This document shows, piece after piece, positions 43,134 to 58,857 of a stretch of 64,000 nt of DNA. The stretch covers positions 1 through 64,000 of the forward strand of contig JADIIX010000105.1 of NCBI GenBank assembly GCA_027604505.1, in the 5' to 3' direction. The stretch is from Gonapodya sp. JEL0774. Lineage: Eukaryota; Monoblepharomycota; Monoblepharidomycetes; Monoblepharidales; Gonapodyaceae. The translations under genes were made by a program, and so were the position numbers. Under the pieces are notes generated by a model. It was given only the letters and a program-made list of their open reading frames with translations, searched no databases and had not been told where the DNA came from. The stretch's first letter is position 1. Each line of letters opens with the position of its first letter.

Positions 43134-44171
43134 GGAGAACGGGCCTGCCTGACATCTTTGGACAGTGAAACAGAACACTTGCCAATTCAACGCGTTTGAC
43201 TATTTTGCATGCTCTCACCAAGTGTTTCTTCTCTCTCTCTCGTTTCCTTCAATCCCTTGGTCCACACAAGCACAGACAGTACTCCAATGAAGCAGAATCA
43301 GCACATCTACATCCAGTTGGAGTTATCGGTTTGGGCGAGTGTCAAAGCGTCGTTCACGGAATACCCGAATGATAAATTCAAGATGGATTCGACAGCCACA
43401 CGCAGTTCAAAGAACAAATGGCTTGCGGTTTTCCAGTGAAAGCGCATGAGCTGTCGTTAATGGAATTCTGCTCCGACCGTTTTTGTTTTGGCTTGAGAGA
43501 TGTACATACTCACGCATGAGTACATAATACACAGCGCTGATGTGTCTTTGAAAGTACCATCCACGTGGCGTCGCAGCCTTCCAAATAAAGCAAGTTTTCA
43601 AATGTCTAGTAAATCAGATGAAGATACATGGAGATGCTCCAATTTGAGATTGTTCTCGTGGATACTATTGCTATATGAAGATGAGAACGCCGGCAGCCGT
43701 CACGCCTATCAAACGGAAAGAATTATCTGACCGCTATGTATCAAATTTGTGTTACAGCGAGATGCTATTGGCTGTCACATTACTTTTATAATTTCTGACA
43801 CCGACGGCAGATGGTGTGCGGGCGAGTGCAAATTCACAGGCGACTTTTATTTGAGATATCACCTCATCCGGAGAGGGGAAAACAAGCGCATAATTTGGTG
43901 CAAGAATGGGCGTCGTGGGCTGTGTTTTCTTGGTCCGTGTTTTGAGGACCAAGGGTGGCTGTGTGGCACCGAGTGGATTCCGTCGAGGCGGGGACTCCAC
44001 CTAAGCAATACAGAAAAGCGGTGCATGAGCGTAAAGAAAGCAGCAGCAAACTTGTCAGTGAATTTGTCGCCGCGATATCTGCGGGATTGTTGTTGAAACT
44101 AATTCTGTTTTCCAAATTTGTTCATAGCGGTGTTTGGCTCCTCAGAACCGTTGATCCCTGATTATCGCTGT

Positions 44172-46186
44172 ATGCAGTCCTCCCACTTTTCTCCGACTTC
44201 GCAAACATCAAGTAACACTCCAAACCGGCGTGGAGCAAACAGGAGCGAGTTGTCTCTGGACTCCACGATGCCTTCTGTGACGCAACCGCTTCTCCAGGGC
44301 GCGGAAAATGCCGTGAGTTTGAAATGCTCACCATCCCAGGGGATCCACCCATCCTGGCCTTGTTCTGAGTCGAATTGTTTCGCGAAGCAGCCCCCAGCAG
44401 TTCCCCCACCACTACCATCGGCAGACTTTCTTTCCCGCCATTATTTTGGCCGCCCTTCCACCGCCTCTGATGCCCGCGCATCAACGTCAATTGACCTTGC
44501 CGAGCCATCTTACGATTCTTCGGATGACCTAGCGTCTAATGCATCCCTTCTACGTCCAGCAGCGCGCCTAGCAGCGGCTGACGGGATGATTGAGCTCCCA
44601 GTCCAGAGAGCGCTTCCTTCCCGTAGGTGGCTCTTGGTGGCGGGTGCCCTCAGCGCACTACTCCTTATCGGAGCTGGTGTAGCGGGAGTGGTAGTGTGGA
44701 AAAAGAAGGAAAACGTCGCACCATCCTCCGCGATGGTGCTCAACTCGGCATCTGGCGTAGGCAACGGGTTTGGGAGCAACAGTACTCTCAACGCGACACT
44801 CGCACCGGCGAACACTACCTCAACAGCGCTCCTCAAACCATCCACCACCGCATTGCGATCTACTGCTCAAATATCTACCACTGCCGTGACTACGACTGTC
44901 AACACCACCGTTCCTGCTACATCGACACCAACGACCACGACGATCATACAGACAACAACAGAGGTCGTGCGAACGACCACACGTGCCAGACCGAGCTCCA
45001 CCACGGCACCATCCCCTCCTCCCCCATCGTTTGCTCCCAACGCCCCTTTCGGTGAGTTTCGCACAACTGCGACAACGTCAATGCGACCAACTCAGAGCTT
45101 TCCAACCCCCGTCTGCAGGCGTGTTCAACTCATGCAACCAACCTGGTGTCGTCGCAATCACGTTTGATGGTAGGTCGTTTTGGCGATCCAAATTTTTCTC
45201 AAGGTGACAATCAGCTCAACAATAATTACATGCGACTTAGATGGTCCCTTTGCATACACACCCGCTTTGCTCGATTTGCTGGACAGGGAAGGCGTGAAAG
45301 CCACATTTTTTGTGGTACGTCTTCATTTCAAAGTGTTGTGCAGCCACCCCAATCCGGTGTTCGTCACTAACGCCCGTCTCCACGTCTCTCAGAACGGAAG
45401 AAATCAAGGCAATCTTAATGACCCTTACTACGCTGGCATGATGCAGCGGGCCGCGGGAGCGGGACACTGCATAGGATCTCAGTACGTACCCATCTTGGAC
45501 TTACACGGCACTTTGAGTTCTCCCTCACACTCTCCCACCGTCCACGCGTCTACCTACAGCACGTGGAGTCACCGCGACCTGACGACACTGAACGACGATG
45601 TCCTTCGTAGCGAAATCAGCCAAATCGAGGATTCTTTCGTCCAGCTCCTCGGAAAAAAACCTTCCTTCCTCAGACCACCATATGTGAGATCGACCGCTTT
45701 GAAGTAATCCGACTGGGCAGCTCTTTAGCAAACTCTTTTTCCTACAGGGCTCCTATAATCAGCATACACTCGACGTGATTGCAAGTTTTGGTTACTCGTC
45801 TGTAGTTATCTGGAATTACGACACAGATGGTGAGTGGAGAAGAGAGGCGTCACACATTGCGAACTCACTCCATGCATACACGTGACAATTAGATTGGGCC
45901 CATCCCCAAGATGTTGGGGCAAGCTTGGGTGTTTACCAGAACGCACTCAACAACCAGAGCCCCCAGAGGTATGTCGTCTCAAACATCCAATCATGTCCCT
46001 CGTCTCAACACGTGCATCCCCTCCACCCCGTACCTGCACCACAGTGGGAACATTTTGATACTCGACCACGATGTAGTTCCAACCGTGACCACCCTGATCC
46101 AGCAGGCCATTGACGCCGTTCAGAGCAGAGGTGGATGGCGGTTTGTCTCCATGGACGAGTGTCTCGGCCGACCGTGCTACCGATAG
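44172..46186 (+). CDS. Membrane-anchored CE4 polysaccharide deacetylase
   Basis: Likely chitin (or other N-acetyl-polysaccharide) deacetylase acting at the cell surface. Eight exons join in phase: 44172-45051, 45119-45169, 45241-45314, 45393-45481, 45560-45683, 45748-45829, 45893-45968 and 46045-46186 (about 505 residues). The cytosolic part (Ser/Pro-rich) precedes a type II anchor (WLLVAGALSALLLIGAGVAG). A Thr-rich, O-glycosylation-type stalk leads to the NodB fold: VVAITFDDGP (motif 1), GHCIGSHTWSHRDL (motif 2, both zinc His present), FLRPPYGSYN (motif 3), VVIWNYDTDDW (motif 4) and ILILDHD (motif 5). Several motifs are split by introns and only appear intact after splicing. The partial gene at the right edge is a close paralogue. 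Confidence 0.9.
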
Positions 46187-46665: not shown

Positions 46666-49600
46666 CTAAGTATTAGTAGTGTTTGACGTTGTGCTTGTCA
46701 AAACTGCAGTAGTGGGCTTGCTTGGCCTGTGGGAAAGGCAACATGTTCTCATCACAGTTGAGCACCAAAGGCATTTTTTGAAAACATACACCGTTGTTAC
46801 CACTGCACGAGTAGTCGTCACATCGGTATCAGTGGAAGTTACCACAGGAGTAACCTCAGTCGTTGCGATCGCGGTAGACGTGACAGCTCTGTAAACCGAC
46901 ACGATTCTTAAACGCACAGATCACGCAGATTTACAGCAAGCGCAAACACCTACTGTGTCGTAGAGAAAGACGTGGTGGCAGCAGGAGCCGGAATCACACT
47001 TTCCCCGGTGCAGCAGCGTTGGAAGTAGCCCGGACCTTTGTTCACACTGATGCCGTATTTCGTGACACTCTTGAGCCAGTCCGTATTATTAAAGAAAGTG
47101 TCGAGTGTGAACCCAGTGGTCGTCTGGTGCACCCACGATGGGCGCTGTGATACATCGGCCCCAGGGCCGCTGTTGGTGCCAACGACTTCCCAGTAGTTGG
47201 AGTCATTGAAAGCGGTGGAACTCATGGGAATGAATCCAATTGGTACGACTGAAGACGGCATGTACACGTTCTGGAATGTTGCAGCAGATAGAGTACCCCA
47301 AGAGCGCGCCAAATACACGTTTGTGTTGGGGTCCGCTGAATGTTGTCGACAATATTCCTTTGAATGAGTCCCCAAGCGAAGCAAGACTTCATTATTTACT
47401 TACCGGAAATCGAGCTGTCGTAAATCCAGAACCACGAGTTTGCTCGAGTCGCCGGGCTGGGTGTCGCTCCATTCGCAACAACATAGCCATTTTGGATCTT
47501 GTCTGTTCCATTCATGCGTTTTGCGCGGTTGCCGACATGAAACTGTGCGTTCTGGAAGATTGCACGACCATAACCCCACACGAAGTCCACTGGATGGAAA
47601 TTGAAAGATGACGTCTGTGAGTGAGTGCTGAACGTAGAACGATTCACATTTGATGAAACAGTCCTCACCATCTCCGAAAACGTAGATCTGGCGCAGAAAT
47701 TTTGTTCACATGATGATTGTCAAGATATGGATATCAAGAACAAGACAGTTCGGGTGGACTCACGTTGTTGAACCAATGATTCGTTCCGTAGTAGCTAAGC
47801 AACGTGTCTTGCCACGATATAAAATGGCAATTCTCGATGTAAGAATTGTCACCTCTGAAGTAGAAAGCAGGAGCTACAGTGAGGTGGGAATGGAAATATA
47901 TCAATCGGGCGAAGAATGACACAGCGACTCATTGCATCGATGCGTGCCTTGGACTGCAGATGCATTCAGAGGCGCAGTGTTCTCAAACCGGATATCGAAG
48001 GCCTTGAAGTAATTTCCTTTCACCCGGACAGTTGCGGATTCGAAACTTGCGCTGGATGCTCCTGGATTGAGAGCTTGCCAGAGGGGGTTGTTCAAGTAAT
48101 ACGAAATCGTGGTTTTGTCCCATCCATCCCCCACAAGAGTGACGTGATCTTTAAAAATGGTAATCTGAGAGTCGCTGTAGTTGCCCGCTCTAATATAAAC
48201 CACGACTTCCTGCGTGTTGGAAGCAGGGATACTGTCGATGGCCGGTTGAATGCTCCTAAAGTTGCCCGAGCCGTCCTGCGCAACAACAATAGCAGAAGAG
48301 GGAACGTTTTGAGGAAGTGTTACAGGGCCTGTCGCAGGAATAGACGTTGTTATCCCGGCAACAGTAGTTGGAAAAATTTCAGCTACTGTTGTAGTTGATG
48401 TGGTGCTGTATCGACGGGTTAATTAAACACTTCACTATGGGGACGCAAACTTGTGAAAGTAGTCACGTACATCACATTGGTGGTCGCTTCCGCAAAAGCC
48501 GTGGTGCTGTTTCGAAAGAGCACTTCACTGCACAACTCCGACGCCGCAACCTCGTGAAAGTCGAAACTCACATCCCATTCGCAATCAATGTTGTCGAGGA
48601 ACTTGTAGTCGCATCTGTTGTTGAAGAGTCAGCGCTTGAGGAAGCAGCAGTCGTACTAGGGTTTGCCGGCCTGAGGGAACGTGGAATCAGATTCGCTGAT
48701 GATTCTTTAGGGCACCAAGATTGTGAGCTCACTGTGTGGTTATTGTTGTTGTTGTGGGGGGCGCTGCTACCACCGGTTGGTTAGTGCAGCAGCGTTGGAA
48801 GTAACCGACACCCTGATTGACACTAATGCCGTACTTGGTCACGCTCTTCAGCCAAGCCGTGTTGTTGAAGAACGTATCAAGTGTAAAGCCGGTCATGGTT
48901 TGATGAACATAGGAAAGACGATGCGAGACGTCAGCTCCTGGGCCAGAGTTCGTACCGACTACCTCGAAGTAGTTTGTGTCATTCGGGGCACCAGAGCTCA
49001 TGGGAATGAACCCAGCAGGAACCACAGAAGCTGGCATATAGAGTCCTTGGAACGTTGCAGCTGATAGAGTACCCCACGGACGACCCAGGTACACATTAAC
49101 GTTGTCATCCGCTGCCAGCACGGCGTCATAAGCTCAACAAAAAGTCCAAACAAACACAAAATCTCTTCCGCACCTGAGATGGAGCTGTTATAGAGCCAGA
49201 ACCAAGAGTTTGCTTTGTCCGCCGACTTTGGATCTGCTCCGTTTGCCACCACGTAGCCGTTTCTTGTCTTGTCAGTTCCGTTCATACGTTTCGCCCGGTT
49301 GCCAACATGGAATTGAGAGTTCTGGAACATGGCCCGACCGTAGCCCCAAACGAAGTCAACTATGTTTGAAGTAGAGAGTCTTCTAATCAACGGAGAGGTC
49401 TGCTCATAAACGGAAGCGACACTCACCATCTCCGAAGACATAAACCTGCGAGACGTGGGACAAAGCAAACATGAGTAGCCAAAATAAAAGTTTGCAGGTT
49501 CTTGTCAAATAAACCTACGTTGTTAAACAATTGGTTGGTTCCGGTGTAACTGAGAAGGGTGTCCTGCCAAGAAACGAAGTAGCAATTTTCAATGTAGGAG

Positions 49601-52600
49601 TTGTCTCCTCTCATGTAGAATGCAGGAGCTGTCGAAGAAAAATTAGCGTGAGTTGTTTGCGCACCGGAAGATTACTTTGAGCAATCGGACGCCCCAAGAC
49701 TTGGATGATACCTTGGGCTGAGGACGTATTGACAGGTCCCGTGTTCTCGAACCGAATGTCAAAAGCCTTGAAATAATTGGCTTTCACCCTCACTGTAGCG
49801 GACTCGAAACTTGCTCCCCCCTGGCCAGGGTTCAGTGCAGACCAAAGCGCTAATGGCAGTATAGATATAGACGATTTACGACTTTGAAAGAAACAAGGGC
49901 CAACAACACAACTTACGGTTATTTAGAAAGTAGGATATGGTGGTTTTGTCCCATCCATCTCCGACAAGGGTAACGAAATCTTTCGTGATGAAGATCTGGG
50001 ATGTGCTATAGTTACCACTTTTAATGTAAACCACAACTTCTTGCGTGTTTGGACTTGGAATACTGTCGATCGCTGGTTGAATGCTCGTGAAGTCACCGGT
50101 ACCATCTTGAGAAACTACGATTGCATTAGCGGGAAGATTCAGAGGACGGGGTAACGATGGCGCGATAGTGATTGTGGCGGTAGTAGTAGCGGCGGCCCTG
50201 TCGAGGCAAAAGGCTTACTCAGCTATCTCGGACCACGGCATTTGTGGATACGGAGAATACGCACGTGGCGGTAGAGGTCACGATAGTCGTAACGAATGTG
50301 GTGACATCCACTGAAGTAGTGGGCGTGGGTAAACTGGTACAAACGCGGTGATACAGAGTGAGAAAGCAGTTGAACAATGTCGCATAATGACAACTCACTC
50401 TGAAGTTGACGACATCCCAGGGAGCAAGCAAACATCTGGAAGTGGGGCGTAGCCGGTGCAGTTAGGAGTTCCTTGGATGAAGACATTTGTGAAAGAGAAG
50501 CCACTGCATGCTCCGGGGTAGCACAGTATGTAGACCGAATTGTTCGCGCCCGGAGCCAAAGTACCCTGAACGTTGGTGTACGAGACATTCGAAATGGGAA
50601 TACCACCAGACGGGTTGCCTGTCGGGCCTCCATTCAAATAGTCTTGCTGGATGACGATACCGAATCCCGTAATGCCAATCAAGGTGATGTCCTTGTAAAT
50701 TACGTTCGACACGTAGCCTCCCGTAGCTCCGACCACGGTCTTGATCCGCAAGCCGTTGAGGTGGGCCTCAACCGTGCAATTGGCAATGTACACCTGAGTG
50801 AAGGAAACAGTAATGAAACGCCAAGCCCGAAGACAAGACCGCCACAGACCCCGGGGTGAATGAAGTTCCTCACATTAGTAACGACCTGACCATCCTTGAT
50901 GGATCCGATCGAGACACCGTGACCACCATAGCAGTAGTTGTTGATGAACGTGACGTTATTTCCCCTGTTGATGGCAAGGCAGTCATCTTGGTTTCGGACA
51001 AAGTTGTTTCGGATTGTGATGTTGTCCGCCGAAACATCTGGTTGCATAAATTTGGCGAGGTAAGTGAAACTCGCCAGTGCCAACGCGGACATAAGACGTG
51101 AAACATTGTGCTTACCAAAAGCGTCAGTGTTGTGACCAAGTTCCAATCCATCTGGTCCGAGAGCGAAGCCGTCTGAGTTGTCAACGGTGATTCCCTCAAA
51201 GGTCGTACCGGAGCCTCCAACGCTGAAAATGTGTACAGGCGAGTTGTGAATGGTGATTCCCCGGACAATCGAGTTCCCCGTGAGAGTCGAACGGAACATT
51301 TTTGGTTTTGGGACGCCACCGTTTGCGCCAATACCTGTTCCAAAGGTTTTAGATTGCAGACTTGCTGATGACACAGAGTAAGGAACGTCTCACCATCCCA
51401 GTAAAGCGGGCCATTTCCTTCAAATGTCCCTCCAGTACCGTCAAAGAGTACATCGGAGCCGGCGATGGTGAAGAGATAATTGGTGCTGTTGAGCGTCTCA
51501 GACTTTGCAAATGTCACTGTGCCACGGAGCTTGACAACAGTGCCAGGCCTCAGTGTGGCCATGCTTATCTTGGTCTCCGCAGGCACTGTGAAGGGGCCCT
51601 GGATCGTGATGTCAGTGTACGGCATGCACGCGGCAAATCCATTCCACGCAGTAACCGTGCACTGAAGAGAGCATTCCGCATAAGCCTTATCAAAAAATAA
51701 AGATATTGGGAGATTTCAAACCCGACTCACTGGTCCTGAAACCGTTGTAGTGGCCGTTTTGGTCGTTTTTGTTGTCGTGGGAGTGAAGGACTGGATGGTG
51801 GTGGTGGCGCTGATCGGTCAAGATATTGAGATCAAACAGCGACTCAGAGTTTGGGAGACCAAGCAAAAAGACGTGTCGCAATTTGTACTTTGCTATGAAT
51901 ACCACTCACTCAGTCGAAGTAGCTGTTGCACTCGTTGTAATGGCAGTCGTGCTACAAACAAAAGTCCGGGGTATAAGTGCCCACCCCAAGTACCAGACAG
52001 TCTCACAACACTCACGATTCCACAGTGGTTGTTGTTGCCACCGTGCTCGTTGTCGAGATCTCGGTGGTGGTCACTGGAAGTGCAGGCAGCAAGCAAACAT
52101 CGGGAAGTGGGGCGTAGCCGGTGCAGTTAGGAGTTCCTTGGATGAAGACATTTGTGAAAGAGAAGCCACTGCATGCTCCGGGGTAGCACAGTATGTAGAC
52201 CGAATTGTTCGCGCCCGGAGCCAAAGTACCCTGAACGTTGGTGTACGAGACATTCGAAATGGGAATACCACCAGACGGGTTGCCTGTCGGGCCTCCATTC
52301 AAATAGTCTTGCTGGATGACGATACCGAATCCCGTAATGCCAATCAAGGTGATGTCCTTGTAAATTACGTTCGACACGTAGCCTCCCGTAGCTCCGACCA
52401 CGGTCTTGATCCGCAAGCCGTTGAGGTGGGCCTCAACCGTACAGTTCCCAACGTAGACGTTGGAAACAATTTGATTGGTGTTCACCGAACCGATCGAAAT
52501 CCCGTGACCGCCGTAACAATAGTTGTTGACGAAGGTGATGTTGTTGCCGCTGTTGATGGCGATACAGTCATCTTGGTTTCGAATATAGCTGTTTCGAATA

Positions 52601-55539
52601 ACAATGTCATTAGCTCCTACGTCTACATGTGAAATTCAGTTTTGGTCGACGGGAAGGTCAGGAGCTTTGGAACCGAAACGCTATAAACCAGTCTCTTACC
52701 AAATGCGTCAGTGTTGTGACCTAATTCCAGTCCATTAGAGCCAATAATAAAACCATCAGAATTGTCAATTTTTATATCCTCGAAGACCGTTCCAGCACCA
52801 GCAACACTGAAAACGTGAACTGGCGAGTTGTGAATGGTGATGCCGCGAACGACTGAGTTGCCAGTGAGCTTTGCGCGGAAAAACTTGGGCTTTGGTACAC
52901 CGCCATTAGCACCCAGACCTATAAAAGGAGTGAGCTTGTGCTGATTGTGTTGTTGATTCCGAAATGCGAAATCTTACCGTCCCAGTACAGGGGACCATTT
53001 CCCTCAAAAGTTCCTTCTGATCCATCAAATACAATGTTTGAACCAGCAATCGTGAAGAGAAAGTTGCCGTTGCCAAGATTATTTGACTTATTGAAGGTTA
53101 TAGTCCCTTGGAGTTTGACTTTCGTATCCGGTTTCAGAGTGGCCATGCTGATCGTGGTTTCGGAGGGGACGGTGAATGGACCTTGAATTGTAATGTCAGT
53201 GTATGGCATGCAACCGGCAAAGCCATTATACGCGGTAACAGTGCACTGTTGGCACAAAGAATGTCTCTCCGATTATGGGCGGGAAAGGAGCAGAAAACAC
53301 TTTCAAAACTCACTGGTCCCGAAGCCGTTGTCGAAGTAACTTTTGTTTTTGTGGTTGTGGGAGTCAGGGTCGTCCTGTCAACCAAACGTTTGTCAACTTG
53401 CGCTGAATTTTAAGTGCTGAGATCGAACTCACGATTCCGGGGCCACTGTGGTGGTTGTGACGTCGGTCGTCGTCAGCGACAACGACCACGACGTGGTAGT
53501 TTCGCTGCAAATAAAGGCGGGAGAAACTTAAGTCTCGGAACCCAACAGTGTGACTAGGGAGAGGGAGCAAACTACGCTTACATTGCAGTGGTAGATGTTA
53601 CGCTGCTCGTCGAAGGCGTTTCTGTTGTCAAGCTGCTCGTTGACGGCGTTACTGTTGTCAAGGTGCTTGTCGATGGCGTCACTGTTGTTAAGCTGCTGGT
53701 CTTCGGTAGCGCGGTTGTCAAGCTACTTGTTGAGGGAGTTGTGGTCCGGCGGCTGGATGCGAAAATTGTTGCGGAAATACGTAAATGTCAGCATGATGGG
53801 AGCCATTGTAAAGCAGCATCCATCTACACAAGAACTCCTTGAGCTAAACGACGCTACTTACTTCACAACGTTTGTACTGGACTTAGTTACCGTCGCTGTT
53901 GCCGTTCTGAAAGATGACGAATCCAGACACAGGGCTTTGTAAAAGCACGCGGGCAGAACCTATACCAAATCCTCAGTTCTTACTTTGTCGTACTTTTCCT
54001 CGTTTTGGTCACAGTTCGGGTGGTCGTCGATGACCTGGTGGTCCCCAATTCGAAAATTCGAAATTAGGATGGAACATAGTACTCTGAGTCTCATACTCAC
54101 TTCAGAGTGCTAGTTCTGGTTTTGGTAGCAGAATGCGTTGACGTGACAGTCTTGGTGGTGGTGGACTTGGTGGAAGTGGTGCGAGTTGTCGAGGTGCCAC
54201 CAATCCCTGTACAACGGTGAAAGTGAGCCACTGTGATTTCACGAAAAACGCTGAGCATCATCCCACCATAAGGATACCAAGAAACGCAGCTCCAAGCCTG
54301 TATTCATCAACCAATACAGAGAGTTCAGTTCAGTTGGTAAGAGCAACTTTGGCGTGGTCAGTAGAGATCACCACTTACCCCCCAATCGGCGAAGTCCTGC
54401 TGCGTGAGCTTTTTACCAGCAACATATGCTGCATGAATCGAATCACAAGTGCGCACGGTGGTCGTGGTTGCTTTGGGTGGGAGCTTTGCTGTGGTCGCGC
54501 CAATACCTGGGGGACAGATGCAATTCAACGAGTTTGTTCACGGACACGAAAAATTTGTAAGAGGGGGGAAAACTTACCTTGCGGAAACCAAATAGAGCAA
54601 GACCAGGCCTTCAGAAAATCACAAGCCAAGCCACAAAGTTTGTACCAATCCCGACCAAATTTTTTTTTCCCCAACAGGTGAACTACTCACCGCCCAGTCA
54701 CTATAATCCTGAGCGGTCATCTTTTTGCCAGATTTGTATCCTGCGTATATACTGTCACATGTGCGTACAGTCGTACTGGTTATGCGGAAATTGTACAACA
54801 GTTGCAAATGGAGCAAGCAACCATCGAGAAGAGAAAATTTTCAGAGAACAACTCTCCAAAATTATTCTCAATATCCAAATGATTGACTCACGTAGATGTT
54901 TTGGAGGACGTTCTACTGGAGTGATAATGGAGAGTGTCAGAGTAACGGATCAGCGACAGATTTAGTGTAGCTTGACTCCCAAACCGGGTAGCTTGACTCC
55001 CAGAACTCACGTGGTAGATCGTCTGGTTCTCAGTGAAGATGAATCGTCGGGAAATTTGGGAGTATGTTTTGGACGCATAGGCGACAAGAATGAACAATAA
55101 GGGGTCACAATCACGCACGTGATAGCTTCTCATGGTATGCGGAATGTAGCGTTCACTCACGTGGTGGTGCTCGCGCGTTTACGGAGTTGCTCACTGAGCC
55201 ATGGCCACCAAGAGCTCGCGTCACTTTTTCATTACAATGGCAATGGTGATTGCGAAAAGACGCAAGTAGAAATTTGCCGATGTGAAATGTTCCGCCGGAT
55301 CAAGTCAGGCGGGGCGGAGGAGGAAGGATCGGCGGGTTTCATTGGGAGACGTTGTGGGTATCAGGCACAAGAACCGCTGAAAACATTAACCACTCAATGA
55401 TGATTCCTCACCCTTCTTGGCGTTTCTGCAAATCGGAAGCTGGGGGAGGTGCATCATCGTCTTGGGCATTAACCAAGGCCGTTGAGAGGACACAGAGGAG
55501 CGTGATGCAGAGGAAGAGCCGATTACTTCCCCTACGCAT
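46666..55539 (-). CDS. Multidomain secreted pectinase: 2 Cys-modules + 2 GH28 + 2 CE8
   Basis: One gene of about 8.9 kb, roughly 1,900 residues, degrading pectin outside the cell. Reading leftwards: signal peptide (start 55539, RLFLCITLLCVLSTALVNA); very short Thr/Ser/Arg exons; two copies of a two-Cys module (54759-54267); Ser/Thr linkers. GH28 domain 1 uses exons 53245-52978, 52918-52700 and 52622-52016; GH28 domain 2 spans 51661-50405; CE8 domain 1 about 50197-48760; CE8 domain 2 about 48408-46985; then a Thr-rich tail. Both GH28 domains keep NTDAF, NQDDC, GGHG and LRIK. Both CE8 domains keep WQDTLLSY and DFVWGYGRA; their last motif is LGRPWG in the first and LARSWG in the second. Every linker exon joins its neighbours in phase with consensus splice sites and no terminator-like break, which argues for one polypeptide. 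Confidence 0.82.
50438..50775. repeat. 338-bp identical block in GH28 domain 2
   Basis: Base-for-base identical to 52103-52440 in GH28 domain 1 (offset 1,665 bp), covering the C-terminal third of the catalytic domain. Sequence on either side differs between the two copies. Confidence 0.95.
52103..52440. repeat. 338-bp identical block in GH28 domain 1
   Basis: Partner of 50438-50775. The identity begins and ends inside coding sequence, with single-base differences at both borders. That is the pattern expected of a conversion tract, not of a duplicated whole exon. Confidence 0.95.
53611..53730 (-). repeat. 30-bp tandem repeat encoding a TPSTSxLTTV linker
   Basis: Four successive 30-bp units (starting 53611, 53641, 53671 and 53701), with partial units at both ends, code in frame for 10-residue Thr/Ser repeats. 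They form the stalk between the Cys-modules and GH28 domain 1. The units are diverged, so the array is not brand new. Confidence 0.85.
54267..54759 (-). repeat. Tandem two-Cys module (two copies, ~40 residues each)
   Basis: Copy 1 (54759-54691 plus 54608-54578) reads TCDSIYAGYKSGKKMTAQD-YSDWA then AWSCSIWFPQGIG. Copy 2 (54447 to 54267, also split by an intron) reads TCDSIHAAYVAGKKLTQQD-FADWG then AWSCVSWYPYGIG. Conserved are two Cys, four aromatics including three Trp, G-K-K and Q-D. An intron falls at the same point (after D-W-A/G) in both. The aromatic layout suggests a carbohydrate-binding or docking role, by inference only. I recognise no named family. Confidence 0.75.
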
Positions 55540-56375: not shown

Positions 56376-58857
56376 ATGAGTTTGGCCGGCAAGCGCATGG
56401 ATAAAGATGATCGATCACTTTACAACAACCACATGATGGCACCCTTGGGCCCACGACGCCGGCCTCAGTTTTTGGTGACATGTAATAACGTTGAGCTCAC
56501 GCAGCTGCCGTTTCTCACGGGGCTCTATTATCTCAAGTGGAAGATCAGGACAATCGGGGGTGGAAGCGGAAAGTCCCCAAAGTGAGAATCCAACAGCGAC
56601 AACGGGGTTTTATTTAGAGAAATATGGCGGCTGATTGTGTGCGCCTGTGGAGGATGCAGAACACACGCTGACATTTCTTGCTTGCCATTCCCCTTTTCGT
56701 CAACTTGAAAGAGTGTCCCCGATCGACCACACAGTGTCATGGACGGGATGGAGTCTCTCCTCCCACTTTAGCACTGCAGTCGGTCGTGAGTCGCTTTTGC
56801 TTCCAGCTGAGCTCTGCATCACTGTCAAGCAGGAACTCAGTGAGAGCAAAATCGTTCTGGGCGAGGTCCGTCTCAATCTCAGCTGCTTCGCAAGGAAGGG
56901 GCCCGAACCGATAAAGCGAAGTATGCTACTACAGAGCTCTAGGATTAATACGTTCATCAATGTAAGCAGTCGTGCGGAAGGGGGTTCATCACCGCTCAGT
57001 GCCTGATCAACAGAATGATACAACCAACGCGAAGTTCTCCATCCACGTCGACCTCGTCGGTAACAGTGACGTAATATTTATTGCACCACCGCTTTCGGCG
57101 CTTACAAATGCGTGGCAGGAGCACAATGGGTCGGATTACGAGGAAGAGATGGTTGGGGAGAACGTGAGTAGCATGGTAACGGACATGGCGTTAATGTTGG
57201 TGCGCAAGAGAAAACGAAATAGAGCCGACGACAAACGCGTTTGAGGGTGGGCTGTTGTTGGTTATCGTGCAGTTTCTCGGAATCGGACAGGAGTCACGGC
57301 TTTCTCCAGGTGATGCTGAAAGCACCGGACTTTTTCAAACGGTGTTGCCGACGTGACTGAAGATACTTACCTGTTCTGTATGGACAACGGTTATCATTTC
57401 ACTGGGTGATTGTACTTGCATCCAACACTATTTCCGCTAATGTTGTAAGGTCCCAGGCCCTCCCCTATCATTTGGCTTGTCCTCGACGCCGGTGCACCGC
57501 GATTCGTTATCTGGGCAGAGGTGAGTTGCTATTGACTTAACGGAGTGGCGCTATAGTGTGAATCAAATGTAACCTTACCACCGCACCTCCTGCACCTGAT
57601 GTTGCTATTTCTCAATCACTGAATGCTCCGTCAACTCACTCAATGTGTAGCTCCCCAAGCAGTGTCCCATCTCCCCTCCCCGGGCGCCCTCGCTCGGCCA
57701 CCACAAACTCGACTCACGGGAGCACGAAATCCAAAACCTTGAGTCCCTACAACGTGCCGAGCAATTCTCCGCTGTCGAGGTCCGCGCAAGCCGCTGCCAA
57801 TGCTGCCCTCGCTGCCATAGCCCATGCCAACGCTTCCATGGCCCTCTCCACAGGAGGTGGAATGGAGTCTAATGGACTTGCGTCTCCCCCGTCGGCGGTA
57901 TCGGCGAACAGTGCTGCGACGTGGTCTTCATCTACCACATCCCCGATTCCAATCACGCTAACGACGCCATCATCGAGTGTTCCCCCAGTGGCTCTCTCGG
58001 CGGGCTCCTCCTCGGAATCCATCGGTGCGGGAGGGTCTGCGCTCGTGGTCGGTTTGTCGTCGGGGGGTACTCCTGGGAGTCGGACACCAGGGGATGTACT
58101 GAGTGAGCTTACACCCTCAAAAGTGCAAGCGTCGGTTCCGTCTATGGCGTCGCCATCCTCCGTGGGATCGGGATCTCCAAGCATATCCAACTTGCATCAT
58201 CAGCAGGCTAGTTCACAGCAACAACAGCAGGCGAAGAAAATCCTTTCCTCAGCGTCGTCGGCAGCATCTTCGGCGGTATCGGCATTGTATGCCGCGGTGG
58301 GGGGTCTTGCGGGCGGGTCAGGTGTATCACCAGGGATGCCAATTGGAGGACATGGAGGCAATGTGGGCGGGGCAGGTGCCGGTGGAAGCACGGGTATGGT
58401 TGGGCATGGGGGTTCTGTGCGTCCAGAAGAAGTAGTGGAGGCAGTGTTTGCAGAGTTGGGAATGGAATGGCCCAAGGTTCGTGGTGCTGCCAGTAAAGAG
58501 AATGGAGTTAGCGCGGGTACGGTGGGGTCAACTGATGTGGCGAATTCGTCAACCTCGACGGCAACAACTCGTGGCAGCTCCGCGAATGTTGTGACTAAAT
58601 CCTTGCAATCCCTCGTTCCCACGAAGGACCAGGAAGCATCAGTGGACGAGAATGACCCTCCGGGAAAATTTGTTTGGAATGGGAACCCTGACGGTTTGCC
58701 GAGGTGGTCACGGCTAGATCGGAACGTGTGGAGAGAGGACCGAGAGCATTGGGCGTATGTGCCCCCTGTGGACAAGGAGGAAGACGAGGACTTACCGGCT
58801 TTGCTTAAATCAGGAAGCGGATTGAAAAGGTTTGGAGTGGTGATTAGCGGTCAGTGA
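56376..58857 (+). CDS. NT-C2 domain protein with long low-complexity tail
   Basis: Peripheral membrane or trafficking-associated protein of the EEIG1/EHBP1-type NT-C2 family. Five exons join in phase: 56376-56581, 56712-56961, 57035-57163, 57450-57520 and 57651-58857 (about 620 residues). The N-terminal C2-like domain shows FLVTCNNVELTQLPFLTGLY and LKWKIR, then VSPIDHTVSWTGWSLSS, ELCITVKQELSESKIVLGEV and INTFINFSIHVDLVG, the usual strand order. The rest is Ser/Ala/Gly-rich with a poly-Gln stretch (QQASSQQQQQAKK). Near the end come two ordered-looking patches: RPEEVVEAVFAELGMEWPKV, and FVWNGNPDGLPRWSRLDRNV with HWAYVPP. Start choice: the ATG at 56376 directly precedes the domain. Confidence 0.78.

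Follow-up and report, generated by a model that had tools for sequence, protein, structure and literature searches.

Predicted structure of the pectinase gene

The window analyzed here is a stretch of 64,000 nucleotides from the aquatic fungus Gonapodya sp. JEL0774 (Monoblepharidomycetes; positions 1 to 64,000 of contig JADIIX010000105.1, assembly GCA_027604505.1). Between 55539 and 46666 on its minus strand, 35 exons separated by 34 introns join into a single open frame of 1,921 amino acids that starts with an ATG at 55539 and finishes with a TAG ending at 46666, coordinates and a strand that coincide with those given in the initial annotation. The exons were picked by eye, and the predicted chain consists of a signal peptide, two 36-residue Cys/Trp modules, a Ser/Thr-rich linker, two GH28 (polygalacturonase) domains, two CE8 (pectin methylesterase) domains, and a tail, distributed as follows.

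55412..55539, minus strand: exon 1, with the start codon, the predicted signal peptide MRRGSNRLFLCITLLCVLSTALVNA, and a propeptide ending LQKR; its phase (2) matches the next exon
54578..54775, minus strand: first Cys/Trp module, two exons, TCDSIYAGYKSGKKMTAQDYSDWAAWSCSIWFPQG, without a Pfam or PDB match
54267..54506, minus strand: second Cys/Trp module, two exons, with intron places and phases as in the first module
53314..54206, minus strand: Ser/Thr-rich N-terminal linker, exons Ee and L1 to L5, 168 residues, S+T fraction 0.61
52016..53245, minus strand: GH28 domain 1, three exons, motifs NTD/NQDD/GGHG/RIK, plus the start of linker 1
51731..51951, minus strand: linker 1 exons L6 and L7, S+T fraction 0.58, with neither Met nor a dibasic site
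50399..51661, minus strand: GH28 domain 2, four exons, motifs as in domain 1, one extra intron (50794-50873)
50265..50333, minus strand: linker 2 exon L8
48733..50197, minus strand: CE8 domain 1, six exons, motifs Q/QD/D/GRPW
48572..48670, minus strand: linker 3 exon L9; the next intron (166 nt) holds a micro-exon in the public model
46954..48405, minus strand: CE8 domain 2, five exons, Q/QD/D kept, ARSW replacing GRPW, one GC-AG intron
46666..46888, minus strand: Ser/Thr-rich C-terminal tail, exons L10 and L11, stop codon TAG

Thirty-three of the 34 introns are of the GT-AG type and one, with its donor at 47947 within the second CE8 domain, is GC-AG; a GT-AG intron occupies the same position in the first CE8 domain. 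All except the first intron (636 nt) and the one of 166 nt measure 58 to 109 nt (32 of 34). Phase 2 is used by the introns of the linkers and phase 0 at the entry to each GH28 domain, which in both cases is directly preceded by the residues SGP/CTVTA, and the earlier claim that the linkers splice in consistent phase between good donors and acceptors stands. GTGAGT donors in phase 2 put a TGA at the donor, so that unspliced messages would end there. The intron at 50794-50873 has no counterpart in the first GH28 domain, and a block nearly identical between the two GH28 copies (see below) starts directly after it. Exon 1 has a hydrophobic core with a best 11-residue mean of 3.16; its joining to the first module across the 636-nt intron is a prediction, and it has no counterpart in the public gene model. 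Of 16 other genes predicted to carry the module, 6 (L031, L032, L043, L044, L046, and the gene on contig C79) also have an RQ motif, as in the KRQ found here, directly ahead of the first module.

Downstream, a convergent gene on the plus strand (∼44103 to 46186) contains a polysaccharide deacetylase (CE4) domain at 45174 to 45704; judged by its open frames, it finishes near 46.2 kb and leaves ∼480 nt to the pectinase stop, in agreement with the predicted 3′ end of the pectinase gene. A 431-amino-acid open frame with a high content of Ser, Gly, and Ala lies at 57562 to 58854 on the plus strand and has no Pfam match. The same assembly encodes PACRG and a chitin synthase, consistent with a flagellated fungus.

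Identity and history of the catalytic domains

A Pfam search of the spliced protein recovered two GH28 stretches (505.2 bits in all against a cut-off of 22.9; E = 9.1e-152) and two CE8 stretches (292.2 bits in all against a cut-off of 27; E = 4e-87), bearing out the domain assignments made from the sequence by the initial annotation. No polysaccharide lyase family, nor any other family besides GH28 and CE8, exceeded the Pfam cut-off anywhere in the 1,921-residue chain. We take NTD, DD, GHG, and RIK to be the catalytic motifs of GH28 and Q, Q-D, D, and R to be the catalytic residues of CE8. The first GH28 domain aligns over NTD/DD/GHG/RIK with the solved endo-polygalacturonases 6kve and 7e56, and the same motifs can be read from the gene model in the second; the first CE8 domain aligns over Q/QD/D/R with the solved pectinesterases 1xg2 and 1gq8. 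Both CE8 copies keep all five catalytic residues, with the second reading ARSW for GRPW.

The two GH28 domains share 82.6% amino acid identity, and over their first 220 codons dN is 0.168 and dS 2.99, their first two thirds being near saturation at silent sites; for the CE8 pair dN is 0.136 and dS is saturated. We read both pairs, from these rates, as old duplicates kept by purifying selection. The last third of the GH28 domains has a different character: BLAST aligns 52083-52458 with 50418-50793 over 376 nt at 97.9% identity, and codons 241 to 330 show no difference in 270 nucleotides. This block likely reflects a recent exchange, most simply gene conversion between copies within one gene. 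Chance splicing was rejected as the source of the open frame on the grounds that it contains four complete domains under purifying selection.

The gene in a public annotation

A hypothetical protein of Gonapodya sp. JEL0774 at NCBI, HDU93_000413 (1,814 amino acids), joins the same four domains and represents the same gene, with no mismatches to our model over 1,776 aligned residues. The two models differ at both ends and internally. In HDU93_000413 the signal peptide, one half of the first module, and the C-terminal tail are missing; the public model skips linker exons L1 and L2, retains an intron in the second GH28 domain, adds a micro-exon in linker 3, and stops early, after TTQ, by reading into the intron that follows the second CE8 domain. 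The annotation was made separately and sits on a 74,316-bp contig; since that contig probably belongs to the same assembly, it is not independent on the assembly order.

One chain or several products

CE8 enzymes strip methyl esters from homogalacturonan, and endo-acting GH28 enzymes cut the de-esterified stretches, two steps that are usually divided between separate enzymes. The coupling put forward in the initial annotation would follow from this chemistry. We consider it likely, with good confidence, that the gene at 55539-46666 encodes one secreted protein of 1,921 amino acids with two GH28 domains, two CE8 domains, and two N-terminal modules, in which the CE8 domains would demethylate pectin at the very place that the GH28 domains would then cut. 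The long Ser/Thr linkers may serve as glycosylated tethers holding the four domains, such that a pectin chain would first be demethylated locally and then cut internally, while the N-terminal modules may hold the fusion at a target common to other wall-degrading enzymes. We infer from the gene model both a single transcript spanning all exons and a chain that stays intact after secretion. Such a protein would give a free-living fungus a natural pectin-degrading machine on one chain, its demethylating and cutting domains fixed at 2:2, and would make it possible to test directly if the attack on highly methylated pectin is faster when CE8 is tethered to GH28.

We judge it unlikely that a single transcript yields a polyprotein that, once secreted, is processed into individual enzymes, the fusion ensuring only that they are made in equal amounts. 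The linkers between the catalytic domains are 56 to 89 residues long (S+T fraction 0.39 to 0.58) and may be protease-sensitive, a Kex2-like KR stands before the first Cys/Trp module, and proteases besides Kex2 could do the cutting. However, none of the three interdomain linkers contains a dibasic (K/R-R) site; those of the 1,921-residue chain are at residues 2, 39, 203 (in the N-terminal linker), and 1286 and 1703 (both within CE8 folds).

We regard as rather improbable a gene whose splice and poly(A) variants yield a series of products, the shortest an enzyme of modules plus GH28 and the longest the complete fusion, through read-through of phase-2 introns. Read-through after the first GH28 domain gives an immediate TGA, and the public model itself ends within the intron after the second CE8 domain, both of which would suit such variants. 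Short messages would nonetheless not produce the downstream domains, which have no start of their own and are yet under purifying selection.

That the region holds two GH28 and two CE8 genes head to tail, their fused look arising from easy intron signals, is very unlikely. Tandem duplicates are common, and the unspliced frames stop at the phase-2 donors, as separate genes would lead one to expect. On the other side, the linker exons keep frame and, in a scan of the unspliced ATGs, no linker ATG before the second GH28 domain or either CE8 domain opened onto a plausible signal peptide; the most hydrophobic of them (50385) begins a frame of 35 codons followed by a stop. The earlier statement that the only signal peptide lies at the 5′ end is borne out to that extent. 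A free-standing GH28 gene on contig C209 has its own predicted signal peptide. The model of a GH28-like gene that is more distant (contig C140) has none, perhaps because this model is incomplete, so that little weight attaches to a missing signal peptide in incomplete models.

Gene prediction likewise favors a single gene over tandem ones. A home-made spliced gene finder placed all four domains in one gene at 12 of 12 settings, a partly independent test only, because this toy program was trained on 15 genes of other contigs that had themselves first been predicted by a model trained on the window gene. Six of these settings returned the ATG at 55539 and the same stop, reproducing 25 to 30 of the 35 exons exactly; three started at 55133, and the laxest three overran one or both ends. 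With a cruder codon table, one gene was obtained at 12 of 15 settings (never from the ATG at 55539, and four times overrunning), and at the remaining three, which carried no start penalty, the region was broken, though inside domains and never in a linker. A boundary forced into any of the three linkers cost 13 to 23 log units, including a constant charge of 9 for the new start, versus 0 for a control tandem gene pair (L042). The sister gene with six CE8 domains (see below), which is likewise predicted as one gene, points the same way. We rejected separate tandem genes on the lack of internal signal peptides in the scan, this boundary test, and the fused public annotation. The proposal of the initial annotation that two GH28 and two CE8 domains lie in one gene, as predicted, is supported by the open frame, Pfam, the public annotation, and the boundary test.

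An assembly artefact in which the near-identical GH28 block (376 nt, 97.9% identity) joined two loci is scarcely credible, as direct repeats within one contig fix the order, a mis-join could hide units and not easily invent them, and the linkers beyond the repeat run on without interruption and keep the frame.

A Cys/Trp module carried by many predicted secreted enzymes

The N-terminal module of the pectinase fusion, 36 residues long and often in tandem, follows approximately the pattern RTCDTIYAAYxAGxxMTAQDYSDWxAWxCxTWFPxGIG. A search of the assembly returned at least 61 matches, at least 54 of them at E ≤ 0.001, on 16 contigs, and an alignment of 30 whole copies selected at 12 loci has eight columns without variation (C, D, I, D, W, C, W, and G). 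None of the 30 matched any Pfam family at E ≤ 1, and a PDB search with the module profile produced no convincing match (best E, 1.4). A protein search with the module alignment, confined to proteins of about the length of the module, gave 10 candidates, none at E ≤ 0.001. The initial annotation contained neither this genome-wide module nor the sister gene with six CE8 domains described below, nor the 270-nt identical GH28 block.

The predicted genes that carry modules include GH45, GH18, GH16, GH5 (two loci), GH7, CE4, CE8, and an M60 peptidase; these domains come from toy gene models, with Pfam matching 9 of ten typed segments (that of L033 did not match). Three further loci (L038, L040, and L042) combine modules with Ser/Thr-rich stretches and have no catalytic domain recognizable by inspection. 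At the last of these, on contig C162, two genes are predicted in tandem; both are very rich in Ser and Thr and carry their modules C-terminally.

Two known families of short modules were considered and rejected: none of the 30 copies matched CBM1 (PF00734), and none matched CBM10, the fungal dockerin (PF02013). CBM1 has 4 matches elsewhere in the same genome, and a CBM10 search of the genome found none, although it gave no match in any control genome either. At the GH16 locus L035 (contig C1, minus strand, ∼8.0 to 8.7 kb of the locus), a signal-peptide-like stretch, two CBM1-like stretches, modules, and a GH16 domain can be recognized by eye; the genome search placed a CBM1 match there, and Pfam, run on one reference, gave none, perhaps because of a wrong frame. 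Because the CBM1-like stretches precede the modules at this locus, the module is probably not simply the CBM1 of Gonapodya.

Since enzymes acting on unrelated substrates carry the module, a common anchor, such as the cell surface, a shared polysaccharide, or a docking partner, suits it better than a pectin-specific binder. We put forward only tentatively, and as a doubtful reading, that the modules form a new docking or targeting family that would gather cellulases, glucanases, a chitinase, deacetylases, a peptidase, and the pectinase fusion in a cellulosome-like manner, having arisen apart from the dockerins of gut fungi. If that were true, the fusion with two GH28 and two CE8 domains and the protein with six CE8 domains would be ready-made multienzyme cargo of the docking system. 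An unclassified module on so many predicted secreted enzymes would point to targeting or grouping of a kind not yet described in an early-diverging fungal lineage.

The gene with six CE8 domains is predicted as a single gene on the plus strand of contig C79 (L017/L018, ∼18.4 to 28.6 kb) with three N-terminal modules. It resembles the pectinase fusion in module type, Ser/Thr linkers, and tandem CE8 domains, but it has no GH28 domain. Its CE8 copies 4 to 6 are probably not esterases, because Ser replaces the nucleophile Asp in them.

Comparison with known systems

A protein search with the pectinase fusion gave 216 candidates, of which three reached E ≤ 0.001: HDU93_000413 and two plant GH28 proteins without CE8. 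It covered chains of ∼1,056 to 3,360 amino acids that share words with residues 440 to 560, and shorter or more distant fusions would be missed. Within these strict limits no second GH28-plus-CE8 protein of similar size was found. Judged from titles and the opening lines of abstracts, the literature yielded no report of a GH28-CE8 fusion. Gonapodya prolifera is described as pectinase rich, with 27 genes including 14 GH28 homologs, and the word "fusion" is absent from the main text of that paper (PMC4494064).

Bacteria do combine CE8 with other pectin-degrading domains. In one bacterial family, a CE8 match was present in 52 of 250 evenly drawn genomes. Of 23 long frames chosen for CE8, some of them truncated where the locus or contig stops, 20 retained the match in Pfam (E ≤ 0.001); GH28 occurred in none of these 20, and a pectate-lyase-type domain occurred in four. 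The Pfam scan omitted, for example, L071, L080, both frames of L095, L106, and the second frames of L091, L093, L099, and L102. A home-made, uncalibrated GH28 profile found nothing in 28 frames of L091 to L110, and the frame chosen for GH28 at L060 contained no CE8. A scan of prokaryotic contigs for CE8 gave three distant loci. One bacterial frame (L110, 1340-3646, plus strand) has CE8 together with a type I dockerin over the Pfam cut-off and a cohesin under it. The four fusions of CE8 with a lyase, each in one open frame, have PL3 (L069), PL1 (L103 and L104), or a Pel9A-like domain (L105) as partner, whereas the Gonapodya fusion pairs CE8 with a GH28 hydrolase and has no lyase domain.

The closest described counterparts are the large pectin methylesterases of Butyrivibrio fibrisolvens, secreted proteins of ∼2,000 to 2,200 amino acids that combine CE8 with pectin-backbone-cleaving and binding domains (PMC12109409). 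They differ from the Gonapodya fusion in being bacterial and in having a PL9 lyase instead of GH28 as partner, and the portion of that report at hand does not describe a 2+2 set (PMC12109409). The fungal dockerins of anaerobic gut fungi (CBM10, PF02013) are short modules on many enzyme classes (PMC6690862); they compare with the Gonapodya modules in how they may work only, no sequence kinship having been found for the 30 copies in Pfam. Joining pectin enzymes into a single chain is already known, and the 2+2 hydrolase-esterase arrangement of this free-living fungus is a new form of it; the module, shared with so many other predicted enzymes, may be the larger discovery.
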